Assembly (NCBI GenBank): GCA_014801655.1
Contig: JAAVDT010000001.1
Span: 7,941-18,953, forward strand
Length of the DNA: 11,013 bases
Reading direction: 5' to 3'
From: Bacteroides sp.
GTDB taxonomy: Bacteria > Bacteroidota > Bacteroidia > Bacteroidales > Muribaculaceae
Below, piece by piece: positions 3,196-8,429 of this stretch (position 1 is the stretch's first letter; each line of letters begins with the position of its first letter). The notes below the pieces were generated by a model. The model ran no database searches. It was given only the letters and a program-made list of their open reading frames with translations, and was not told where the DNA came from. Made by a program: the position numbers and the translations under genes.

Positions 3196-3226
3196 CGAAA
3201 ATAGTGCCGGCGGTTTGTTCCGGAAA
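3196..3226 (-). promoter_or_regulatory. Weak Bacteroidota-type promoter for the tape measure gene
   Basis: On the minus strand, TTTC (3226-3223) is followed 19 nt later by TATTTTCG (3203-3196). Each box is one mismatch from the Bacteroidota consensus TTTG-N19-TAnnTTTG. The site lies between the terminator at 3235-3272 and the tape-measure start at 3166, which is where an independent promoter would be needed. The mismatches keep this tentative. Confidence 0.35.
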
Positions 3227-3234
3227 AGACGAAT

Positions 3235-3272
3235 AAAAACCCCTCGCCGTGCATTGGATGAGCGACGAGGGG
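3235..3272 (-). terminator. Rho-independent terminator after the three small genes
   Basis: On the minus strand, a 10-bp stem (arms 3272-3263 and 3249-3240) closes a 13-nt loop and is followed at once by TTTTTATTC (3239 downward). One pair in the stem is a G-U in minus-strand RNA but would be an A-C mismatch in plus-strand RNA. This supports minus-strand transcription ending here, upstream of the tape-measure gene. Confidence 0.75.
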
Positions 3273-3275
3273 AAA

Positions 3276-3512
3276 ATTAAAAAAAATAAAGTGGACGATG
3301 GGGGTTTCCGGCCACTCTTGGCCGCGGGGTCCTCACGGATTGCCCGATGAGATGAAAAAAGCCTTTTAAGTGGCGATATTCGGGTAGCGACAACAGCATC
3401 GGAGCGTTATTGAAGCGGCGTAGATTGCCACAATGCTGCTACAAACTTCTTATTCTCGCTTTTCTATATCCCCGGGCGGGGGCGGTGCGCAGCCTGCAAG
3501 GCTGATGAGTGG
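3276..3512 (-). other. Hairpin-rich non-coding 3' region, candidate structured RNA
   Basis: No convincing gene lies between the 94-aa gene and the terminator. Read on the minus strand, it holds: a hairpin with arms CAGCC/GGCTG (3504-3490); a 10 to 12-bp stem (3440-3431 with 3401-3392) enclosing a small inner hairpin TGGC/GCCG with a 7-nt loop; a stem-loop CTCATCGG/CCGTGAG (3351-3332); and a perfect 6-bp stem CGGCCA/TGGCCG with loop AGAG (3324-3309). Several pairs in the second element are G-U on the minus strand and would be A-C on the plus strand, so structure is favoured in minus-strand RNA, the sense of the operon. It could be a structured 3' UTR, a processed small RNA, or incidental GC-rich folding. 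Confidence 0.4.
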
Positions 3513-3797
3513 TTATTGACGGGGAGGGTTGAAGTCGGAAGCCTGGCGGAGGTTGTCGCGCAGGTGCATGTTGTCGATGTAGGTGTTCAGGGCGTCGGCA
3601 ATCTGGACGAGAGCCTCGGTGCCGAAGATGTCGATCTCGATGTTGTTGTAGATGTCTTCTTCGTTTTCGATGGGGTGGACTACGTCGTTAATAGAGATTG
3701 CGTAGCGGACGGTGCCTTGTTTGTGGTGATGGTCGTAGACGAGCACGGGGTTTATTTCAACGTCGATGAATGAGTTGATGATTTCGGCCTTAATCAT
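3513..3797 (-). CDS. Hypothetical 94-aa acidic phage protein
   Basis: I do not recognise a family. The 94-residue product begins MIKAEIINSFIDVEINPVLV. It is acidic, has a His cluster (YDHHHKQG, about residues 22-29), and ends in a probable helix (ALVQIADALNTYIDNMHLRDNL). It has no signal peptide or membrane segment. Its ATG overlaps the TGA of the upstream gene (ATGA, 3797-3794), and a strong Shine-Dalgarno sequence AAAGGAGGT sits 5 nt upstream, so translation is probably coupled and also directly initiated. It is the last gene of the three-gene operon and is followed by the structured region and terminator. Its position just before the tape-measure gene would suit a tail-assembly role, but nothing in the protein shows this. 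Confidence 0.8.
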   Translation of the reverse strand: MIKAEIINSFIDVEINPVLVYDHHHKQGTVRYAISINDVVHPIENEEDIYNNIEIDIFGTEALVQIADALNTYIDNMHLRDNLRQASDFNPPRQ

Positions 3798-4036
3798 TTG
3801 GCACCTCCTTTCTGATTATTCATGAAATCATCGTAGACAATGCAGGCAAACACGTTGTTAACGCCCTCATGGCAGGTGTCGCCATGTTCGGTCAGCCACT
3901 CGTCGAGGTCTTTGGGCGTTAGCGGGGTCTTTTCCACGAGGTTGACAAAATAGGTCAAGTTACCTTTTTTCTTTTCCCAAGTCTGCGAAATCTCGCGCAC
4001 CACGAGATTGATCAGGTCTTCTTTAAATCCCATCAT
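3794..4036 (-). CDS. Hypothetical 80-aa phage protein
   Basis: I do not recognise a family. The product begins MMGFKEDLINLVVREISQ and contains TPLTPKDLDEWLTEHGDTCHEG, a helix-turn-helix-like spacing that is too short to call a DNA-binding domain. It has no signal or membrane segment. The ATG overlaps the upstream stop (ATGA at 4036-4033), and the Shine-Dalgarno sequence AAAGGAGG (4050-4043) lies 6 nt before the first Met; the second Met (4033) is a weaker alternative start. Its own C-terminus, NNQKGGAK, encodes the Shine-Dalgarno sequence for the next gene. Middle gene of a compact three-gene operon. Confidence 0.8.
   Translation of the reverse strand: MMGFKEDLINLVVREISQTWEKKKGNLTYFVNLVEKTPLTPKDLDEWLTEHGDTCHEGVNNVFACIVYDDFMNNQKGGAK
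3803..3811 (-). promoter_or_regulatory. Strong Shine-Dalgarno site of the 94-aa gene
   Basis: The minus strand reads AAAGGAGGT, 5 nt upstream of ATG 3797, a near-perfect match to the 16S anti-Shine-Dalgarno. The bases are also the codons for the C-terminal Q-K-G-G of the upstream protein. Such strong sites are uncommon in Bacteroidota. Confidence 0.8.
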
Positions 4037-4230
4037 CGCTGGCCTCCTTTCTGCCGGGGGGTGGCGGGTTCGTTGATGGTGATGTTGATTGTGGCGCCCT
4101 GGAGGTCGAAGGTGAAGGTGTTGCCATGGGCGGTGATGTCGATAGTGTCGATGGCTGCTGTGGCATCTTCGGCCACCATGCTCATCAGCTCGCGGAACTT
4201 GCGGCCGGTGATTGTTTTTTGCTTTTTCAT
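4033..4230 (-). CDS. Hypothetical 65-aa phage protein
   Basis: The start chosen is ATG 4230 (MKKQKTITGRKFRELMSMVA). A frame extension to 4296 is possible, but it would run through the inverted repeats of the leader and gives an unlikely N-terminus. The family is not recognised. Residues about 8-25 form a basic-to-amphipathic helix, followed by a stretch of alternating polar and hydrophobic residues (DTIDITAHGNTFTFDLQGATINITINE) that suggests beta strands, perhaps a small beta-sheet fold. The C-terminus RQKGGQR carries the Shine-Dalgarno sequence of the next gene. First gene of the operon; its start codon sits 1 nt from the third copy of the 17-bp repeat element, so its translation could be controlled by leader folding. 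Confidence 0.72.
   Translation of the reverse strand: MKKQKTITGRKFRELMSMVAEDATAAIDTIDITAHGNTFTFDLQGATINITINEPATPRQKGGQR
4043..4050 (-). promoter_or_regulatory. Strong Shine-Dalgarno site of the 80-aa gene
   Basis: The minus strand reads AAAGGAGG, 6 nt upstream of ATG 4036. It is embedded in the Q-K-G-G codons at the end of the 65-aa gene, exactly as at the next junction. Confidence 0.8.
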
Positions 4231-4431
4231 TTCGATGAATAGTTTGACTATATAGACAGAAAAACGGCTGCCATATCCCGTCGTCAAACTATTCATCGAT
4301 AACTCCGAAGAGCCGGTATGAAATGGATATGGCAGCCGAAGCTGTTTATGTCAGGGCAAAAAAATTGCCCGAAATATTTCCGAGCCGTTAACCGTGGCTC
4401 ATCGGTATCATTATCGATAAAATAGTTTGAC
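4231..4431 (-). promoter_or_regulatory. Long leader with interleaved inverted repeats (candidate RNA switch or operator set)
   Basis: This ~200-bp stretch lies between the predicted transcription start and ATG 4230. A 17-bp element GTCAAACTATTCATCGA occurs on the minus strand at 4248-4232 and inverted (plus strand) at 4283-4299, a perfect inverted repeat. A variant with an extra T/A-rich insert lies at 4431-4413, at the transcription start. A second perfect 14-bp inverted repeat, CGGCTGCCATATCC, has arms at 4265-4278 and 4325-4338; its downstream minus-strand arm is followed by TTTTTC. The arms of the two repeats interleave (pseudoknot order). Two plain hairpins, GAGCC/GGCTC (4382-4400) and GGGCAA/TTGCCC (4354-4370), lie between. 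It may act as RNA (attenuator or translation switch) or as DNA (repressor sites or recombination sites). Confidence 0.6.
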
Positions 4432-4435
4432 ACTG

Positions 4436-4466
4436 CAAAGCTACGGCAAATTTTTGAAACTGCAAA
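4436..4466 (-). promoter_or_regulatory. Bacteroidota-type promoter for the three-gene operon
   Basis: On the minus strand, TTTG (4466-4463) is followed after exactly 19 nt by TAGCTTTG (4443-4436), a full match to TTTG-N19-TAnnTTTG. Transcription should start near 4430, at the first copy of the 17-bp repeat element, so a protein bound there could block initiation. Confidence 0.7.
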
Positions 4467-4520
4467 ATAAATTTGATTTTTTCCGCAAAAATCTTTTTTA
4501 GCGTTTTTTCTAAAACGAAA

Positions 4521-4551
4521 GCCCCCGCGCTAAGCCAATAGCGTCGGGGGC
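4521..4551 (-). terminator. Terminator of the hicAB cassette
   Basis: A 12-bp stem with one bulged base has arms 4521-4532 and 4539-4551 and a 6-nt loop. On the minus strand it is followed by TTTCGTTTT. It sits 33 nt after the hicB stop. The outer GCCCCCG/CGGGGGC pairs also occur in the hairpin upstream of hicA (5360-5393), so the cassette is bracketed by similar hairpins. Confidence 0.65.
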
Positions 4552-4584
4552 TGAAAATCAGGTGAACTCCATCAAAGGGTGAAA

Positions 4585-4992
4585 TCAAACAAGAGAGACC
4601 TGACTTAATTCGGAGGCAAACAGATGCAAACCGTTCTGAATTTTGGCCGTTGTTTTAGGCGACGGATTGCGATAGCCGGTAGCGTACTGTGAAAGCTGGG
4701 CTGCCGAAACTCCGGTCAGCTTGGCCAATCCTTTGAAGGTGATTAATCCGCCATAATAGGCGAGAAACGAGGGGAGGTCATAGACGAATTTGAAGTCAGC
4801 TTCGACGAAGGGCTTGCCTTCCTCCTGATAGCGAACCTTCATGGCCTCATACATGCGCTGCCATTCTTCAACGGCCTGCTCAACCGTTGCACCTTCACCA
4901 ACCAGACCGTAATTAATCGGTGCGTCTTCGTCTACAAAAATTGAATAAGTGCCGTTTTTCTCACGAGCTACAAATGCTTTAACCTGTTCCAT
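4585..4992 (-). CDS. hicB: HicB-like antitoxin with C-terminal helix-turn-helix
   Basis: A 135-aa protein next to a HicA-like toxin gene. HicB antitoxins bind HicA directly and usually repress their own promoter. Residues about 1-70 (MEQVKAFVAREKNGTYSIFV, then the helix VEQAVEEWQRMYEAM) match the partial RNase H-like N-terminal fold that blocks HicA. Residues about 85-130 (FKGLAKLTGVSAAQLSQYATG) form a Xre-type helix-turn-helix that would bind DNA. The length is normal for HTH-type HicB proteins. It starts at ATG 4992, 68 nt after the hicA stop, with no Shine-Dalgarno sequence. Its likely DNA target is the palindrome in the hicA promoter. The gene order toxin-antitoxin is normal for hicAB. 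It could be a host-protective addiction module carried by the phage, or an anti-phage or superinfection function; the sequence does not decide. Confidence 0.85.
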   Translation of the reverse strand: MEQVKAFVAREKNGTYSIFVDEDAPINYGLVGEGATVEQAVEEWQRMYEAMKVRYQEEGKPFVEADFKFVYDLPSFLAYYGGLITFKGLAKLTGVSAAQLSQYATGYRNPSPKTTAKIQNGLHLFASELSQVSLV

Positions 4993-5039
4993 AGTCTAAT
5001 AATAATAGTATCAACTCAATAGTGTTAAGTTAAAGGGAG

Positions 5040-5053
5040 GGGGCTTTCGCCCC
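5040..5053 (-). other. GC-rich hairpin between hicA and hicB
   Basis: The minus strand has a perfect 5-bp stem GGGGC/GCCCC with a GAAA tetraloop just after the hicA stop. No U tract follows, so it is unlikely to be a full terminator. It could lower readthrough or protect the transcript, altering the toxin-to-antitoxin ratio. Confidence 0.4.
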
Positions 5054-5060
5054 GTTCCCA

Positions 5061-5252
5061 TTATAAATCAACGCCCGATGCTTTTTTGATGTTTCTGAGG
5101 GTTCCTCGGGCCACTTCCTCTTTGCCGTGGTGACTTGTAGCAAAATACTGGTCGGTTAGAGGGCTGAACCATTCAGGGTGACCGCAAAGCTCTCGCCCTG
5201 TCGGGTAACACCCTGCTTTCTTTAATTTTCGATGGAGTTCATTGTATTTCAT
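5061..5252 (-). CDS. hicA: HicA-like mRNA interferase toxin
   Basis: A 63-aa protein of the small HicA family, which adopts a double-stranded-RNA-binding-like fold and cleaves mRNA. The N-terminal helix MKYNELHRKLKKAGC is typical. The expected catalytic His is H25 (CGHPEW), and the C-terminal HGKEEVARGTLRNIKKASGV matches the family's ending. I chose ATG 5252: an in-frame GTG at 5273 would add seven residues, but it lies only 2 nt beyond the -7 promoter box, at or before the predicted transcription start. The insert between the His and the C-terminal helix (FSPLTDQYFATS) differs from the common form, so the family call is strong but activity is not assured. It is followed by hicB. Confidence 0.85.
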   Translation of the reverse strand: MKYNELHRKLKKAGCYPTGRELCGHPEWFSPLTDQYFATSHHGKEEVARGTLRNIKKASGVDL

Positions 5253-5275
5253 AAATCTCGTGTTTGATTTCACTA

Positions 5276-5306
5276 CAAAGATAATGCTATTTTTTATAAT
5301 AGCAAA
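5276..5306 (-). promoter_or_regulatory. hicA promoter with operator-like palindrome
   Basis: The minus strand has TTTG (5306-5303), a 19-nt spacer and TATCTTTG (5283-5276), an exact Bacteroidota promoter. The spacer holds a perfect 7-bp inverted repeat, TGCTATT (5285-5291) and AATAGCA (5298-5304), with a 6-bp centre. This is the expected place for HicB autoregulation. The surrounding sequence is much richer in A/T than the phage genes. Confidence 0.75.
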
Positions 5307-5359
5307 ATAAAATTGATTTTTTTGCTGATTTTTTTTGTCTGGCTCCGATGAAACGAGCC

Positions 5360-5393
5360 AAGCCCCCGGGGCCTGACGGGGCTTCGGGGGCTT
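5360..5393. other. GC-rich hairpin upstream of the hicAB promoter
   Basis: A perfect 9-bp inverted repeat AAGCCCCCG/CGGGGGCTT has arms at 5360-5368 and 5385-5393. Neither side has a clear U tract (TTGAGGTGTTTT on the plus side), so its use as a terminator is uncertain. With the similar hairpin at 4521-4551 it brackets the hicAB cassette. Confidence 0.45.
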
Positions 5394-5884
5394 GAGGTGT
5401 TTTAAGAGATCGTTTAATAATATGAAGTAACCCTCACGGGCAAAAATGCGAAAGTTTTTTCAGTTTTTATCGTTTTTTCGGTTGTTTTTTCGGGGATGTG
5501 TGTCATTTGACTGGCGGAGGTCGAAAAAACGGGGGTTAAAGATGTGTTTTTCAAGCAAATTCGGGTGGTTTCGAGGGGCTCGGGTTTAAGGATTTTTTGA
5601 TTTGTAGGGGCTTGCGAAATGTAAGGCGCGGGAGGTGAGGCGATTGCGGATTACGGGGACTGCCCCGTGTAGTGGCATTGAAGACCCCCCACCGCCCTGA
5701 GTTCGGGGTGGGCCCCCGACCCCCTGCGCCCCTCGGAATATGCGTGAAATGTTAAAAATGTTAACAAAAAGTGTTAAAATCCTCCGATTCCGTTAACAAT
5801 TCGGCCCCTCGCCCTCCGAAGCCCCGGCACCGAGAGGCGGAGTGAGGTTGGCTCGGGTCGGGAGGTGGGTCGGTGTGGCTTCCG
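5394..5884. other. Non-coding stretch with short repeats and G-rich tracts
   Basis: I see no credible gene on either strand. The plus strand has three copies of GTTTTTTC at 5454-5461, 5472-5479 and 5484-5491, with an inverted copy at 5523-5530. A perfect hairpin ACGGGG/CCCCGT lies at 5655-5670. The minus strand has runs of four to six G between about 5734 and 5685 (G-quadruplex potential). GTTAA motifs recur four times between 5749 and 5797. It could hold regulatory or packaging sites; nothing here proves it. Confidence 0.4.
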
Positions 5885-5919
5885 GGGAAAGAACCGGGCC
5901 ACCTTCACAGGCAGCCCGG
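5885..5919 (-). terminator. Candidate terminator of the lysis operon
   Basis: Minus-strand RNA would form an 11-bp helix (5919-5909 with 5904-5894) capped by a GUGA tetraloop, then TTCTTTCCCC. Two adjacent pairs are G-U in minus-strand RNA and C-A mismatches in plus-strand RNA, which favours the minus strand. It lies 73 nt beyond the spanin stop. The U tract is poor. Confidence 0.5.
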
Positions 5920-5992
5920 CATGACAGACATTGAAAAAACGAAAAACACAATTGAAGGTATGAGTCAGCAAAGATGATGGGGGAGGGGGCGG

Positions 5993-6475
5993 TTATTTAT
6001 TGTTGGAGTGGATTGCGAAAATGAGATAGGCCAGGGCTACGAGTGCCAGGGCGATGATGAGCGGCGTGGGGTTGGGAGGGTCATAGATTGCCGTGGCGGA
6101 GGTGGATCGGGCGGAGCCGAAGGTGGCGGAGCGGTGGAGGGTGATGGAATCGAGGGAAGTGGTGGAGAGAGTGGAGGCGCTGGAGGCGGTGTGGGTCGAA
6201 ACGATGTGACCACGAGTGGCGATGATGGAGATGGTGGTGGGTGGCAGTGAATCAGGAGCCGGCCGGGAGATTGTGACGGCGAGAGTGTCGAATGAGAATG
6301 AGAGGGAGGAGAATAGGGAATCGGCGGAGAGGGCTGAGACGGTTCGGGAGGAACCGGCAACGGAATCGGTCAGGGTGGAGGAGGTGGTGGTGAGCTGCTG
6401 CTGTGACCGACAGGCTCCGAGAAGGGGCGGGAGGAGGAGGGGCAGCAGGATCGTGAGGAATCGGGGGGAGGTCAT
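5993..6475 (-). CDS. Lipoprotein with C-terminal membrane segment, candidate unimolecular spanin
   Basis: A 160-aa protein. Residues 1-21 are a classic lipoprotein signal (LLPLLLPPLLGAC), with the lipobox LGAC and acylated Cys at 22. The middle (about 25-135) is rich in Ser, Thr and Ala and probably extended. Residues about 138-155 (LIIALALVALAYLIFAI) form one transmembrane helix, followed by a short polar tail. A lipoprotein anchor at one end and an inner-membrane helix at the other is the architecture of unimolecular spanins such as phage T1 gp11, which join inner and outer membranes in the last step of lysis. The ATG overlaps the endolysin stop (ATGA, 6475-6472), completing a holin-endolysin-spanin order. 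Sequence similarity to known spanins is not expected; the call rests on topology and context. Confidence 0.75.
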   Translation of the reverse strand: MTSPRFLTILLPLLLPPLLGACRSQQQLTTTSSTLTDSVAGSSRTVSALSADSLFSSLSFSFDTLAVTISRPAPDSLPPTTISIIATRGHIVSTHTASSASTLSTTSLDSITLHRSATFGSARSTSATAIYDPPNPTPLIIALALVALAYLIFAIHSNNK

Positions 6476-6876
6476 AAGTCAGTTTTTACGTTGAACGATG
6501 GGCAGGCTTTGGCAGCAAATTCATTGTGGCCGTGGATGGTTGCGGCGGGGAACTTCTGACGAAGCTCTGCGATGAGTTGGCGGAGTGCAGCGCGCTGCCG
6601 GGGAGTGCGGGTGTCCTTCGGGGTTTTGCCGTCGGCGGCGAGGCCACCGACATAGCAGACACCGATTGAATCGGCATTGTGGCCGGAGCAATGGGCCCCG
6701 ACCTTTTCAAGCGGACGGCCGGGGTGGATTGACCCGTCGAGATAAATGAGGAAGTGATAGCCGATGTCGGCCCAGCCGTTGACGCGGACATGGAGGTCGC
6801 GCACCTGGCTGACGGTGACGCCACGGCCCTCAGGCGTGGCAGTGCAGTGGATGATGATTTTGTTGATCTTTCGCAT
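6472..6876 (-). CDS. Endolysin: N-acetylmuramoyl-L-alanine amidase (Amidase_2, T7 lysozyme type)
   Basis: A 134-aa single-domain amidase that would cut the bond between N-acetylmuramic acid and L-alanine in peptidoglycan. It begins MRKINKIIIHCTATPEGRGV. The probable zinc ligands are H10 (IIIHCTAT), H117 (HGHNEF) and C125 (KACPSF); Y40 (IGYHFLI) and K123 fit the catalytic Tyr and Lys of T7 lysozyme, with matching spacing. The length is close to the T7 enzyme (151 aa), with no cell-wall-binding domain and no signal peptide, so export depends on the holin. The gene starts 21 nt after the holin stop and overlaps the spanin start. Many Bacteroidales phages encode very similar amidases. Confidence 0.93.
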   Translation of the reverse strand: MRKINKIIIHCTATPEGRGVTVSQVRDLHVRVNGWADIGYHFLIYLDGSIHPGRPLEKVGAHCSGHNADSIGVCYVGGLAADGKTPKDTRTPRQRAALRQLIAELRQKFPAATIHGHNEFAAKACPSFNVKTDL

Positions 6877-6897: not shown

Positions 6898-7344
6898 TTA
6901 GTCGAGGTTAAGTTTTTTGCGGGTGAACTCGCGGAAGAGTTCACGGAGGTCGTCTTCGCCGAAGTATTCAATGATGTCTTTGAGGTGGGTTGGGAGTTTG
7001 GTCAGTTTGTCGCGTCGGAGGCGAGCGTGCTCAACCATTGAGAGGACTTCGACAGCAATCATGGCAATGGCGGTGATAACGGTGAGATAGGGAAGTTTGG
7101 TCCAGCAGGCTGCCATGAGGGAATCGATGGCGAGGACTGCGAGCAGGAGGATCCATTCCTTGGCGAGCTTCCAGAGAGCGTGACGGAGCTTGGCGCTCTC
7201 GATGGGGCGGCCAACACTTCGGGAGGTGAACATTGCGTCGATGCAGTCGGCCACGTTGGCAATCATCACGAGGATGAAGGCGAGGACGCTGACGGCGACA
7301 AACGTGTGGATGTGGGGGAATGATTGTAATAAATTAGTGAGCAT
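6898..7344 (-). CDS. Phage holin family protein
   Basis: A 148-aa membrane protein just upstream of the endolysin. Three hydrophobic segments are visible: residues about 14-36 (FVAVSVLAFILVMIANVADC), 64-81 (WILLLAVLAIDSLMAACW) and 86-104 (YLTVITAIAMIAVEVLSMV). A charged tail follows (HARLRRDKLTK, then EDDLRELFREFTRKK). This is the pattern of the larger holins common in Bacteroidota phages, which form lesions in the inner membrane and release the endolysin. It starts at ATG 7344; the 142-nt gap upstream holds the antisense hairpin array. No minus-strand promoter is visible in that gap, so expression probably comes from the promoter at 8399-8429. Confidence 0.82.
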   Translation of the reverse strand: MLTNLLQSFPHIHTFVAVSVLAFILVMIANVADCIDAMFTSRSVGRPIESAKLRHALWKLAKEWILLLAVLAIDSLMAACWTKLPYLTVITAIAMIAVEVLSMVEHARLRRDKLTKLPTHLKDIIEYFGEDDLRELFREFTRKKLNLD

Positions 7345-7373
7345 GGCGTTATGGAGATTTGGAGAAAAATTGT

Positions 7374-7381
7374 TAACTTTG
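7374..7381 (+). promoter_or_regulatory. Bacteroidota -7 box on the opposite strand, in front of the hairpin array
   Basis: The plus strand reads TAACTTTG, an exact TAnnTTTG. The predicted start, about 5 nt downstream, coincides with the base of the first hairpin (7386). The -33 partner is poor: a TTTG lies at 7358-7361 with only a 12-nt spacer, and nothing good lies at 19 nt. So the promoter is plausible, not certain. Confidence 0.45.
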
Positions 7382-7385
7382 TGGC

Positions 7386-7488
7386 ATGCTGGTCGAGCTA
7401 CGGGCTCATCAGCATAGTGTCTATTTGCTGCTACGGGCGCATACTCAGACCTCTATATGTCGGATGCTACGGGCTCCGACTTTTTTTT
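7386..7488 (+). ncRNA. Candidate ~100-nt antisense-strand small RNA with three like hairpins
   Basis: The 9-mer GCTACGGGC occurs three times (7397-7405, 7430-7438, 7466-7474), each at the tip of a hairpin. Hairpin 1 (7386-7415) has 12 pairs and one bulged C at 7394. Hairpin 2 (7419-7450) has an apical stem TGC-T-GC and a lower GTCT/AGAC stem across an internal loop. Hairpin 3 (7459-7480) has 8 pairs with a bulged T at 7465 and is followed by T8. In hairpins 2 and 3 the bulged T lies at the same place, two pairs below the loop. Each loop is UACGG closed by GC, or a stable C(UACG)G tetraloop with a bulged G. A G-U pair in hairpin 1 exists only in plus-strand RNA. The RNA would end on the stop codon of the tail gene, antisense to it. 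Target unknown; no match to a family I know. Confidence 0.55.
7459..7488 (+). terminator. Rho-independent terminator on the plus strand (hairpin 3)
   Basis: GTCGGA (7459-7464) pairs with TCCGAC (7475-7480), with two further GC pairs above a bulged T, and eight T follow (7481-7488). It is the best intrinsic terminator in the window, and it points against the genes. The T tract overlaps the TAA stop of the 288-aa gene on the other strand. Confidence 0.75.
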
Positions 7489-8353
7489 ATGTTGCCAGGA
7501 TCGGGAAGAAGTATGGTCTGTCGAGCGAGCCACCTGGCGCCTGGCCGGGGAAGAGTACCGAGAATGTTGCGAGGTTTGAGACGATGTGGGCCGACGTGAC
7601 AGATTGAGCGTTGTGGTTGAAGTCAGGTTTTGCGAAAGCGATAGCGAACGGCAGGCGTATTGTGCGCCACTTCACTTCGGGGTCGAGAAAGTCGGTTTTG
7701 AGAGTGGCTCGCTTGGCGAGGTCAATGGAGTTCTTGCCCCATGAGATAACGGGGACGCGGAATCTCTGGCCGGCGTAGTTTTTTCGGTAGGCGAATTTGA
7801 TGGTGATCTGCGGGAGCGCGAAGGATTGGATCGCTCCGGAGAAGGAGCGAGTGTGAAATTCGACGAGGTTGTTTTCTTCGCGGTTAATGAAGACATAGTC
7901 GCGAGAGAACATCTGGTGCCAGCCTCTGTATATGGTTTGGTCGTGGACCAGGTCAACACCGCCCTGCGATTTGACGTGGAAAACTTTATGCTTAGATGTG
8001 GGACGGAGGAGAAACGGGATGTAACCGGCATCGAGGTATTGATCGGCATTTCGGAGGTAAAGACCCCAGCCGTCGGATTCGCAGAAGAGGCGAGGCATGG
8101 CAGAATCTTTGGGGAGATTTTGGAGCCGGTCGGTGACCCAGGTTTCGAGAATGTTGTGGTCGGCAATTACATCGTCGAGCCGTGCGCCGAGGAGGCCGAG
8201 ATTGAGGTCGGGGTCGACATTGGCATCACGCACCGCCAGGGCGAGGCGATGGAGTATATAGCCGAGCGATTGTGGGGTGACGGAATCTTTGGCGTTGAGC
8301 AGGCGGAACTCAGAGATGAGTTTATCTAAGGGGGTGATGGAGTCTTCAATCAT
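7487..8353 (-). CDS. Tail-associated structural protein, possibly fibre-like
   Basis: A 288-aa protein starting at ATG 8353 (MIEDSITPLDKLISEFRLLN). A longer frame to 8509 exists, but its extra residues overlap the previous gene and look non-coding, and the promoter at 8399-8429 would be inside it. The N-terminal motif DSITPLDKLISEF...LNAKDSVTPQSLGYIL resembles, from memory, the N-termini of Bacteroidota phage tail or fibre proteins. Residues about 85-100 may form a coiled coil. The remainder (about 105-288) is rich in aromatic and beta-type residues (SDGWGLYLRN, NNLVEFHTRSFSGAIQSF, VKWRTIRLPFAIAF) and could be a receptor-binding or baseplate-like domain. Its stop lies in the T8 tract of the opposite-strand terminator. 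It heads the unit that leads into lysis genes. Function is inferred from context only. Confidence 0.8.
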   Translation of the reverse strand: MIEDSITPLDKLISEFRLLNAKDSVTPQSLGYILHRLALAVRDANVDPDLNLGLLGARLDDVIADHNILETWVTDRLQNLPKDSAMPRLFCESDGWGLYLRNADQYLDAGYIPFLLRPTSKHKVFHVKSQGGVDLVHDQTIYRGWHQMFSRDYVFINREENNLVEFHTRSFSGAIQSFALPQITIKFAYRKNYAGQRFRVPVISWGKNSIDLAKRATLKTDFLDPEVKWRTIRLPFAIAFAKPDFNHNAQSVTSAHIVSNLATFSVLFPGQAPGGSLDRPYFFPILAT

Positions 8354-8398: not shown

Positions 8399-8429
8399 CA
8401 AAAATATGGCGGTGAGCGGAGGAAGGAAA
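8399..8429 (-). promoter_or_regulatory. Promoter for the 288-aa gene and lysis genes
   Basis: The minus strand has TTTC (8429-8426), a 19-nt spacer and TATTTTTG (8406-8399). The -7 box is exact and the -33 box has one mismatch. It lies in the 82-nt gap after the gp10-like gene, and the predicted start (~8393) is ~40 nt upstream of ATG 8353. Confidence 0.5.

Follow-up and report, generated by a model that had tools for sequence, protein, structure and literature searches.

Organization of the Array

The DNA analyzed in this study, referred to as the window, is a stretch of 11,013 bases from a Bacteroides sp. of the family Muribaculaceae, and it corresponds to bases 7941–18953 of contig C19 (JAAVDT010000001.1) in a genome of 2.29 Mb (GCA_014801655.1). 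It is part of a prophage in which a gap of 142 nucleotides (nt), between a holin gene and the gene of a 288-amino-acid (aa) protein, contains an array of three hairpins on the opposite strand, which an earlier note had put forward as a small RNA candidate. The 9-mer GCTACGGGC was found by exact search three times on the plus strand, at 7397–7405, 7430–7438 and 7466–7474 (window positions), with spacings of 33 and 36, and it had no further exact copy in the 11,013 bases. Folding of 7386–7490 predicted three hairpins with the 9-mers at their tips (−35.8 kcal/mol, z = −3.74), and none of 200 shuffles was as stable. Exact search and folding, the latter named as a check in the earlier note, both bear out its description of three 9-mers that each form the tip of a separate hairpin.

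The tips are identical (GC, UACGG, GC), whereas the stems of the three hairpins differ in sequence. Hairpin 1 (7386–7415, tip 7397–7405) contains a bulged C in its 5′ arm and one G-U pair in its lower stem. Hairpin 2 (about 7419–7450, tip 7430–7438) has a bulged U two pairs below the loop and, in the centroid fold, a lower internal loop. Hairpin 3 (7459–7480, tip 7466–7474), the putative terminator stem, has the same bulged U two pairs below its loop and is followed directly on its 3′ side by a run of eight T (T8, 7481–7488), the presumed intrinsic terminator tail. Beyond the 9-mer, the likeness extends to a 13-nt family, of which the other copies are 92 and 85% identical to the first. Upstream of hairpin 1, TAACTTTG at 7374–7381 on the plus strand fits the −7 box TAnnTTTG of Bacteroides and would place a transcription start near 7386. 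From the box, the hairpins and the T-run, a small RNA of about 100 nt is proposed to span 7386–7488 on the plus strand. The bulges of hairpins 2 and 3, T8 and the box had all been listed before and are all present; in hairpin 1 the bulge is a C situated lower down.

Chance Controls

GCTACGGGC was the sole 9-mer of the window with three copies within 110 nt, and none of 400 dinucleotide shuffles contained any such triple. Because the 9-mer itself starts and ends with GC, a further control held the 9-mers fixed and shuffled the spacers alone (n = 2000). The energy of the array was reached in 13 of these 2000 shuffles, and all three tips were at a stem-supported apex in one. Thus, the 9-mer alone does not account for the stems, and the claim that they have diverged in sequence while still pairing holds beyond what the spacers would give by chance. 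Moreover, the plus strand of the window contains four TAnnTTTG boxes and three runs of seven or more T, so that a box and a T-run flanking the array are unlikely to be a coincidence.

Background triples were also counted in fetched loci totaling 3.13 million strand-bases, which provide a biased and rough yardstick as most of them were picked for pairs of GCTACGGGC and several overlap; the window and nine loci of the array itself were excluded. Diverged flanks together with three tips were found for 34 of 4922 9-mer triples, none of which had a T-run, for 44 of 5672 8-mer triples, one of which, a repeat of L177, had a T-run, and for 24 of 7114 7-mer triples.

Strand, Putative Promoter and Putative Terminator

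The plus strand is favored, as had been proposed, because the T-run lies 3′ of hairpin 3 on this strand alone and because the G-U pair of hairpin 1 exists in plus-strand RNA alone. The minus strand also folds (z = −2.73, with one of 200 shuffles as stable), in this case over the longer stretch of 7345–7490. An element on the minus strand, which would have no T-run there and would lose the G-U pair, is less likely. No TAnnTTTG box was found on the minus strand of 7345–7490, and the nearest one upstream is at 8406; holin expression therefore probably depends on read-through. The promoter consensus of Bacteroides consists of the −7 box TAnnTTTG plus TTTG near −33, and no −33 motif was detected in Flavobacterium johnsoniae, according to an excerpt of PMC7366714. 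Hairpin 3 was not listed by a simple terminator scan, probably owing to its bulge.

Both spacings (33 and 36) are divisible by 3, and on the plus strand two open reading frames (ORFs) extend across the array and one more overlaps hairpin 1. None of the three ORFs had a Pfam match at E-values up to 1. The 82-aa ORF had a single protein match, P0028 (two members on two contigs, probably of this or a near-identical genome). Identity to P0028 extends for 46 residues, across the whole array, after which the P0028 sequence follows a different window frame, as one extra T would give; read against the window frames, this near-identical record seems to carry that T in the T8 run. A coding repeat specifying a plus-strand peptide was rejected, as the frame seems to be broken by the change in T-run length and no Pfam match was found.

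Loop Type and Tip Accessibility

The loops had been assigned earlier to the UNCG tetraloop class as C(UACG)G. When this loop was forced in hairpins 1 and 3, the two that were evaluated, it cost 4.6 kcal/mol relative to the best fold, and the class is therefore inapplicable as drawn. The predicted loop is instead either a pentaloop, UACGG, or a triloop of ACG with U-G as its closing pair. A, C and G are the only bases of each tip that are reliably unpaired in the predictions, the U and the next G being at about 0.2 and the rest paired.

In the coat-protein operator of MS2, which is situated at a regulated start codon, an A is bulged out two pairs beneath a loop of 4 nt. The likeness to this operator that had been suggested for the array is not supported, as the loop is 3 or 5 nt, the bulge is U rather than A, and it is found in two of the three hairpins. 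A strict motif of the bulged hairpin shape seen in the array was counted in the prophage at hairpins 2 and 3 and at one further site (L146:11727–11750), hairpin 1 being outside this motif; in its context, that further site folds differently. As modeled, compact and closed tips suit a protein reader better than a base-pairing seed. Since the tips are tightly closed and leave ACG alone unpaired, a protein partner is likelier than base pairing.

Prophage Context and Neighboring Genes

The prophage is probably bounded by an exact direct repeat of 57 bp at positions 3496–3552 and 38742–38798 of C19, 35.3 kb apart. The end of the first copy coincides exactly with the 3′ end of a tRNA-Ser gene, an integrase gene adjoins this copy, and a repressor-like gene is found near the other end. 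Terminase, head protease, primase, tape measure, holin and amidase genes were also recognized. The identified structural and lysis genes occupy the minus strand, and the plus strand carries the integrase and repressor genes, both beyond the window. Within the window, the likely genes are encoded by the minus strand and the array by the plus strand, next to the holin gene, in keeping with the earlier description of an array that faces the window genes beside those for lysis.

The holin (6898–7344, minus strand) is a protein of 148 aa that matches Pfam PF05105 (E = 1.1e-7), and 42 nt separate its start codon from the putative start of the RNA. It is followed by an N-acetylmuramoyl-L-alanine amidase, the endolysin (6472–6876, minus strand; Pfam PF01510, PHROG 822). 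On the other side of the array, the 288-aa protein (7487–8353, minus strand; longest ORF to 8509) has no assigned function and no family match; by its position, it is perhaps a virion part.

Several other features of the window and prophage were observed. A toxin gene (5061–5273, PHROG 353), which we take to be hicA, and a helix-turn-helix partner gene (4585–4992) lie within 4388–5322. They are flanked by a 52-nt direct repeat (4431–4482 and 5271–5322, 79% identity) and by inverted repeats (4579–4596 and 5256–5273, 94%), and the cassette looks as if it had moved as one unit. A block of small genes with no assigned functions is present twice in the prophage, at 3224–4474 of the window and at C19:21590–22416 (L146:1590–2416), in three pieces with 82–93% identity. 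Finally, a gap of about 700 bp at 5274–5992 contains a 16-pair hairpin (5359–5394) and several inverted repeats; minus-strand ORFs of 65 and 52 aa, and no likely gene, were found there.

Searches for Related Arrays

The samples searched for arrays overlap, and the patterns require exact tips, so that arrays with other tips would escape. Among 61 relatives (own genome counted), the pattern of a tip pair was found in the own genome and in one genome with another type of repeat; among 393 genomes of the order and 397 genomes of the family, it was found in the own genome and in three others each time (own genome counted in both). In the eight loci of these six other genomes, all of which were folded, a run of six T (T6) followed the pair in none; three loci (L142–L144) are a tandem repeat and the others are inside open frames of 240–643 codons. 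In one genome of the same genus (G032), six places (L124–L129) have repeated CCCTACGGGG- or CCCTACGGGAT-like units, which is another UACG-centered repeat.

In viral contigs, the two-copy pattern was found in at least 120 stretches, 80 of them among the matches listed, which were scanned by script only. Three CTACGGG plus T5 were found in no viral contig. Two copies plus T4 were found once, inside a frame of 1676 codons as judged by sequence, and two CTACGGG plus T6 were found in 18 stretches, which were folded and of which none had three such tips. Terminator-like hairpins with a UACG tip number two in one viral locus (L203) and one in a few other viral contigs. On inspection, the 16 matches among genome contigs proved to be in tandem repeats, in long open frames or, for L172, in what resembles the end of a tRNA, and no phage record matched the pattern. 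In Rfam, no family reached its gathering score on the window (4227 families), and none matched 7300–7550 at E-values up to 10.

A hairpin model of the three units (R1), searched over 26 loci, identified the three units and L146:11727–11750 (E = 0.038, or 0.01 over two loci), which lies close to where a small early gene begins. Over 34 genomes of the genus, R1 matched, beyond the three units, one place in the own genome and seven in five others, all with E-values of 0.24 or worse and no contig with two; these extra matches are taken as chance.

Relatives were also sought through the neighboring proteins. The 288-aa protein had four protein matches, none in viral contigs by single sequence or alignment, and none in phage records. 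For the holin, 23 protein matches were found at E-values up to 1e-3, of which 20 were aligned. One of the aligned holins is nearly that of the window (99%) and 19 are 56–81% identical to that one; they are known as proteins only. A search with the holin alignment found no viral contig and no genome contig, and the single-sequence search found one partial viral match; one phage record matched at 28.8%. In genomes (own counted), the holin was found in 7 of 34 of the genus at 1e-3, in 13 of 149 of the family at 1e-10 and in 1 of 393 of the order at 1e-22, the last being the own genome. Distant holins from the genus search were 27–33% identical to that of the window.

The 320 nt upstream of these distant holins were scanned at eight of eight further genus places and 12 of 13 further family places, with L139 and L162 left out. 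Runs of T6 or longer on the antisense strand were found in 3 of 20 (L133, L136 and L155). An antisense TAnnTTTG box was observed 32–37 bases from the start of the holin match in L131, L159 and L160 (29 bases in the window), that is, in 4 of 21 loci with the own one counted; at these three loci, no hairpin array was found beside the box.

Interpretation of the Array

The pattern of the array is real, and the status of the candidate small RNA as a gene is unproven. We tentatively favor a plus-strand small RNA of the prophage, about 100 nt long, whose three equal tips are a repeated protein-recognition element. Its transcription would start near 7386 from the −7 box at 7374–7381 and would be terminated near 7488 by hairpin 3 and T8. 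The three equal tips would be one recognition element presented three times, by which an RNA-binding protein of the phage or host may be titrated or gathered. As the RNA would oppose the late mRNA immediately ahead of the holin gene, the likeliest outcome would be on the expression of late or lysis genes. A more specific version appears quite doubtful: a three-site RNA decoy of bulged hairpins with equal tips that soaks up an RNA-binding protein, in which hairpin 3 doubles as terminator and synthesis against the lysis mRNA links the controls.

Several results weigh against the favored explanation. Sequence, predicted fold, position and prophage context are what is shown for it, and transcription, protein binding and an effect on lysis are inferred. 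No TTTG is present at −33 of the proposed start, the one at 7358–7361 being too near the box, and a simple scan listed no sigma-70-type promoter at the array. No candidate partner protein is at hand, no search for one, CsrA-like or other, having been made. A second three-tip array before a T-run was found nowhere outside the own genome among the relatives, viral and genome contigs and phage records searched, and the 8 of the 20 upstream regions of distant holins that were folded (L133 and L136 included, L155 not) showed no such array. The sole further R1 match in the prophage (L146:11727–11750) folds otherwise in its context. Moreover, real DNA is richer in local repeats than shuffles, which therefore understate repeats: the window contains 7 triples of 7-mers (3 of them inside GCTACGGGC) and 28 triples of 6-mers, compared with 0.5 and 7.4 per shuffle, respectively.

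A cis-antisense RNA resembling OOP of lambda, for which an excerpt of PMC5488031 provides the precedent, is rather unlikely. Such an RNA would pair along its whole length with late mRNA from the interval that separates the 288-aa gene from the holin gene; loop-loop contact would come first and lead to cleavage or early termination, by which the lysis genes would be held down. Relative to the holin start, the array is indeed 42–144 nt upstream and on the opposite strand, its complementarity in cis is complete, and the holin probably relies on read-through across 7345–7490, where no minus-strand box was found. The identity of all three tips, however, is left unexplained by this mechanism, and the RNA stops short of the holin start codon.

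It is unlikely that the array has no function at all and is a plus-strand terminator with local duplicated hairpins, or a product of drift in the prophage, left as an unexpressed relic. The collections searched yielded no homologous array, the 92 and 85% likeness within the 13-nt family would fit an old local duplication, and other viral contigs also have terminator hairpins with a UACG tip, in one case (L203) as a pair. Yet the stems differ and still pair, which spacer shuffling reproduced once in 2000, the box and the T-run bracket the array, and none of the 34 fetched-locus 9-mer triples with tips and diverged flanks (of 4922) had a T-run.

Quite improbable is a trans-acting small RNA with redundant seeds, in the manner of LhrC and sX13, that represses host or rival-phage mRNAs through its tips. 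A precedent for such a role is svsR, a small RNA of an Escherichia coli prophage that limits infection by other phages, as outlined in an excerpt of PMC12803456. The tips of the array, however, are predicted to be closed by GC pairs. In the own genome (G000), the 9-mer was found at eight places on both strands, three of which are the array, compared with 74 for a reversed control pattern; the rarity of GCCCGTAGC may perhaps be due to the TAG and CTA inside it. For the full 9-mer, to which this search was confined, the complement GCCCGTAGC was found at five genome places outside the array, none of them at a start codon, four being opposite a likely gene and one deep inside a frame. Among 42 start regions of the prophage, the best pairing was with the holin's own overlapping leader (−15.5 kcal/mol; next, −12.1 kcal/mol) and was no better than that of shuffled loops, 44 of 300 of which equaled it. 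This pairing test has little power, and it showed no target.

If the favored explanation is true, a discrete three-tip RNA would provide a bait for its RNA-binding partner and a handle on the timing of lysis in such phages.

Comparison with Known Systems

Among the titles and abstract openings listed for open-license papers, we found no such array and no small RNA controlling lysis in a Bacteroidales prophage. In type III toxin-antitoxin RNAs (ToxI), tandem repeats precede a toxin gene that has the same orientation, and this type was rejected as what lies downstream of the array on the plus strand is the back of a minus-strand gene. FopS and GibS of Bacteroides thetaiotaomicron, for which spread by phages was suggested by the authors, end in a terminator hairpin as the array is predicted to do, but have a single-stranded seed and one terminator hairpin (excerpt of PMC11697453).

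With regard to OOP-type features, the array is opposite a phage mRNA and has a −7 box and a hairpin followed by T8, but no −33 box was seen. OOP, of 77 nt and opposite cII-O, has an intrinsic terminator, is situated at cII rather than at lysis genes and is not known to have repeated hairpin tips; the array is opposite late genes by the holin gene. As a short phage RNA on the strand facing an mRNA, OOP resembles the proposed RNA (excerpt of PMC5488031).

In LhrC of Listeria, one motif is used in several places of one RNA, the terminator loop included, and this reuse is common to LhrC and the array; the LhrC motif is a CU-rich UCCC that pairs with mRNA starts, according to an excerpt of PMC4132741, whereas the tips of the array are closed and G+C-rich, and no such target at an mRNA start was found. 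Similar to the array, sX13 of Xanthomonas has three stem-loops with like tips, but its loops are C-rich and directed against G-rich mRNA motifs (excerpt of PMC3771888). The array repeats one motif, with a copy in the loop of the putative terminator, as RNAs of the LhrC/sX13 type do, but its motif is predicted not to be free to pair.

The decoy RNAs CsrB and RsmZ titrate a protein with a repeated hairpin motif. Similar to CsrB and RsmZ, in which the repeated motif is GGA, the array repeats a hairpin that could titrate a protein.
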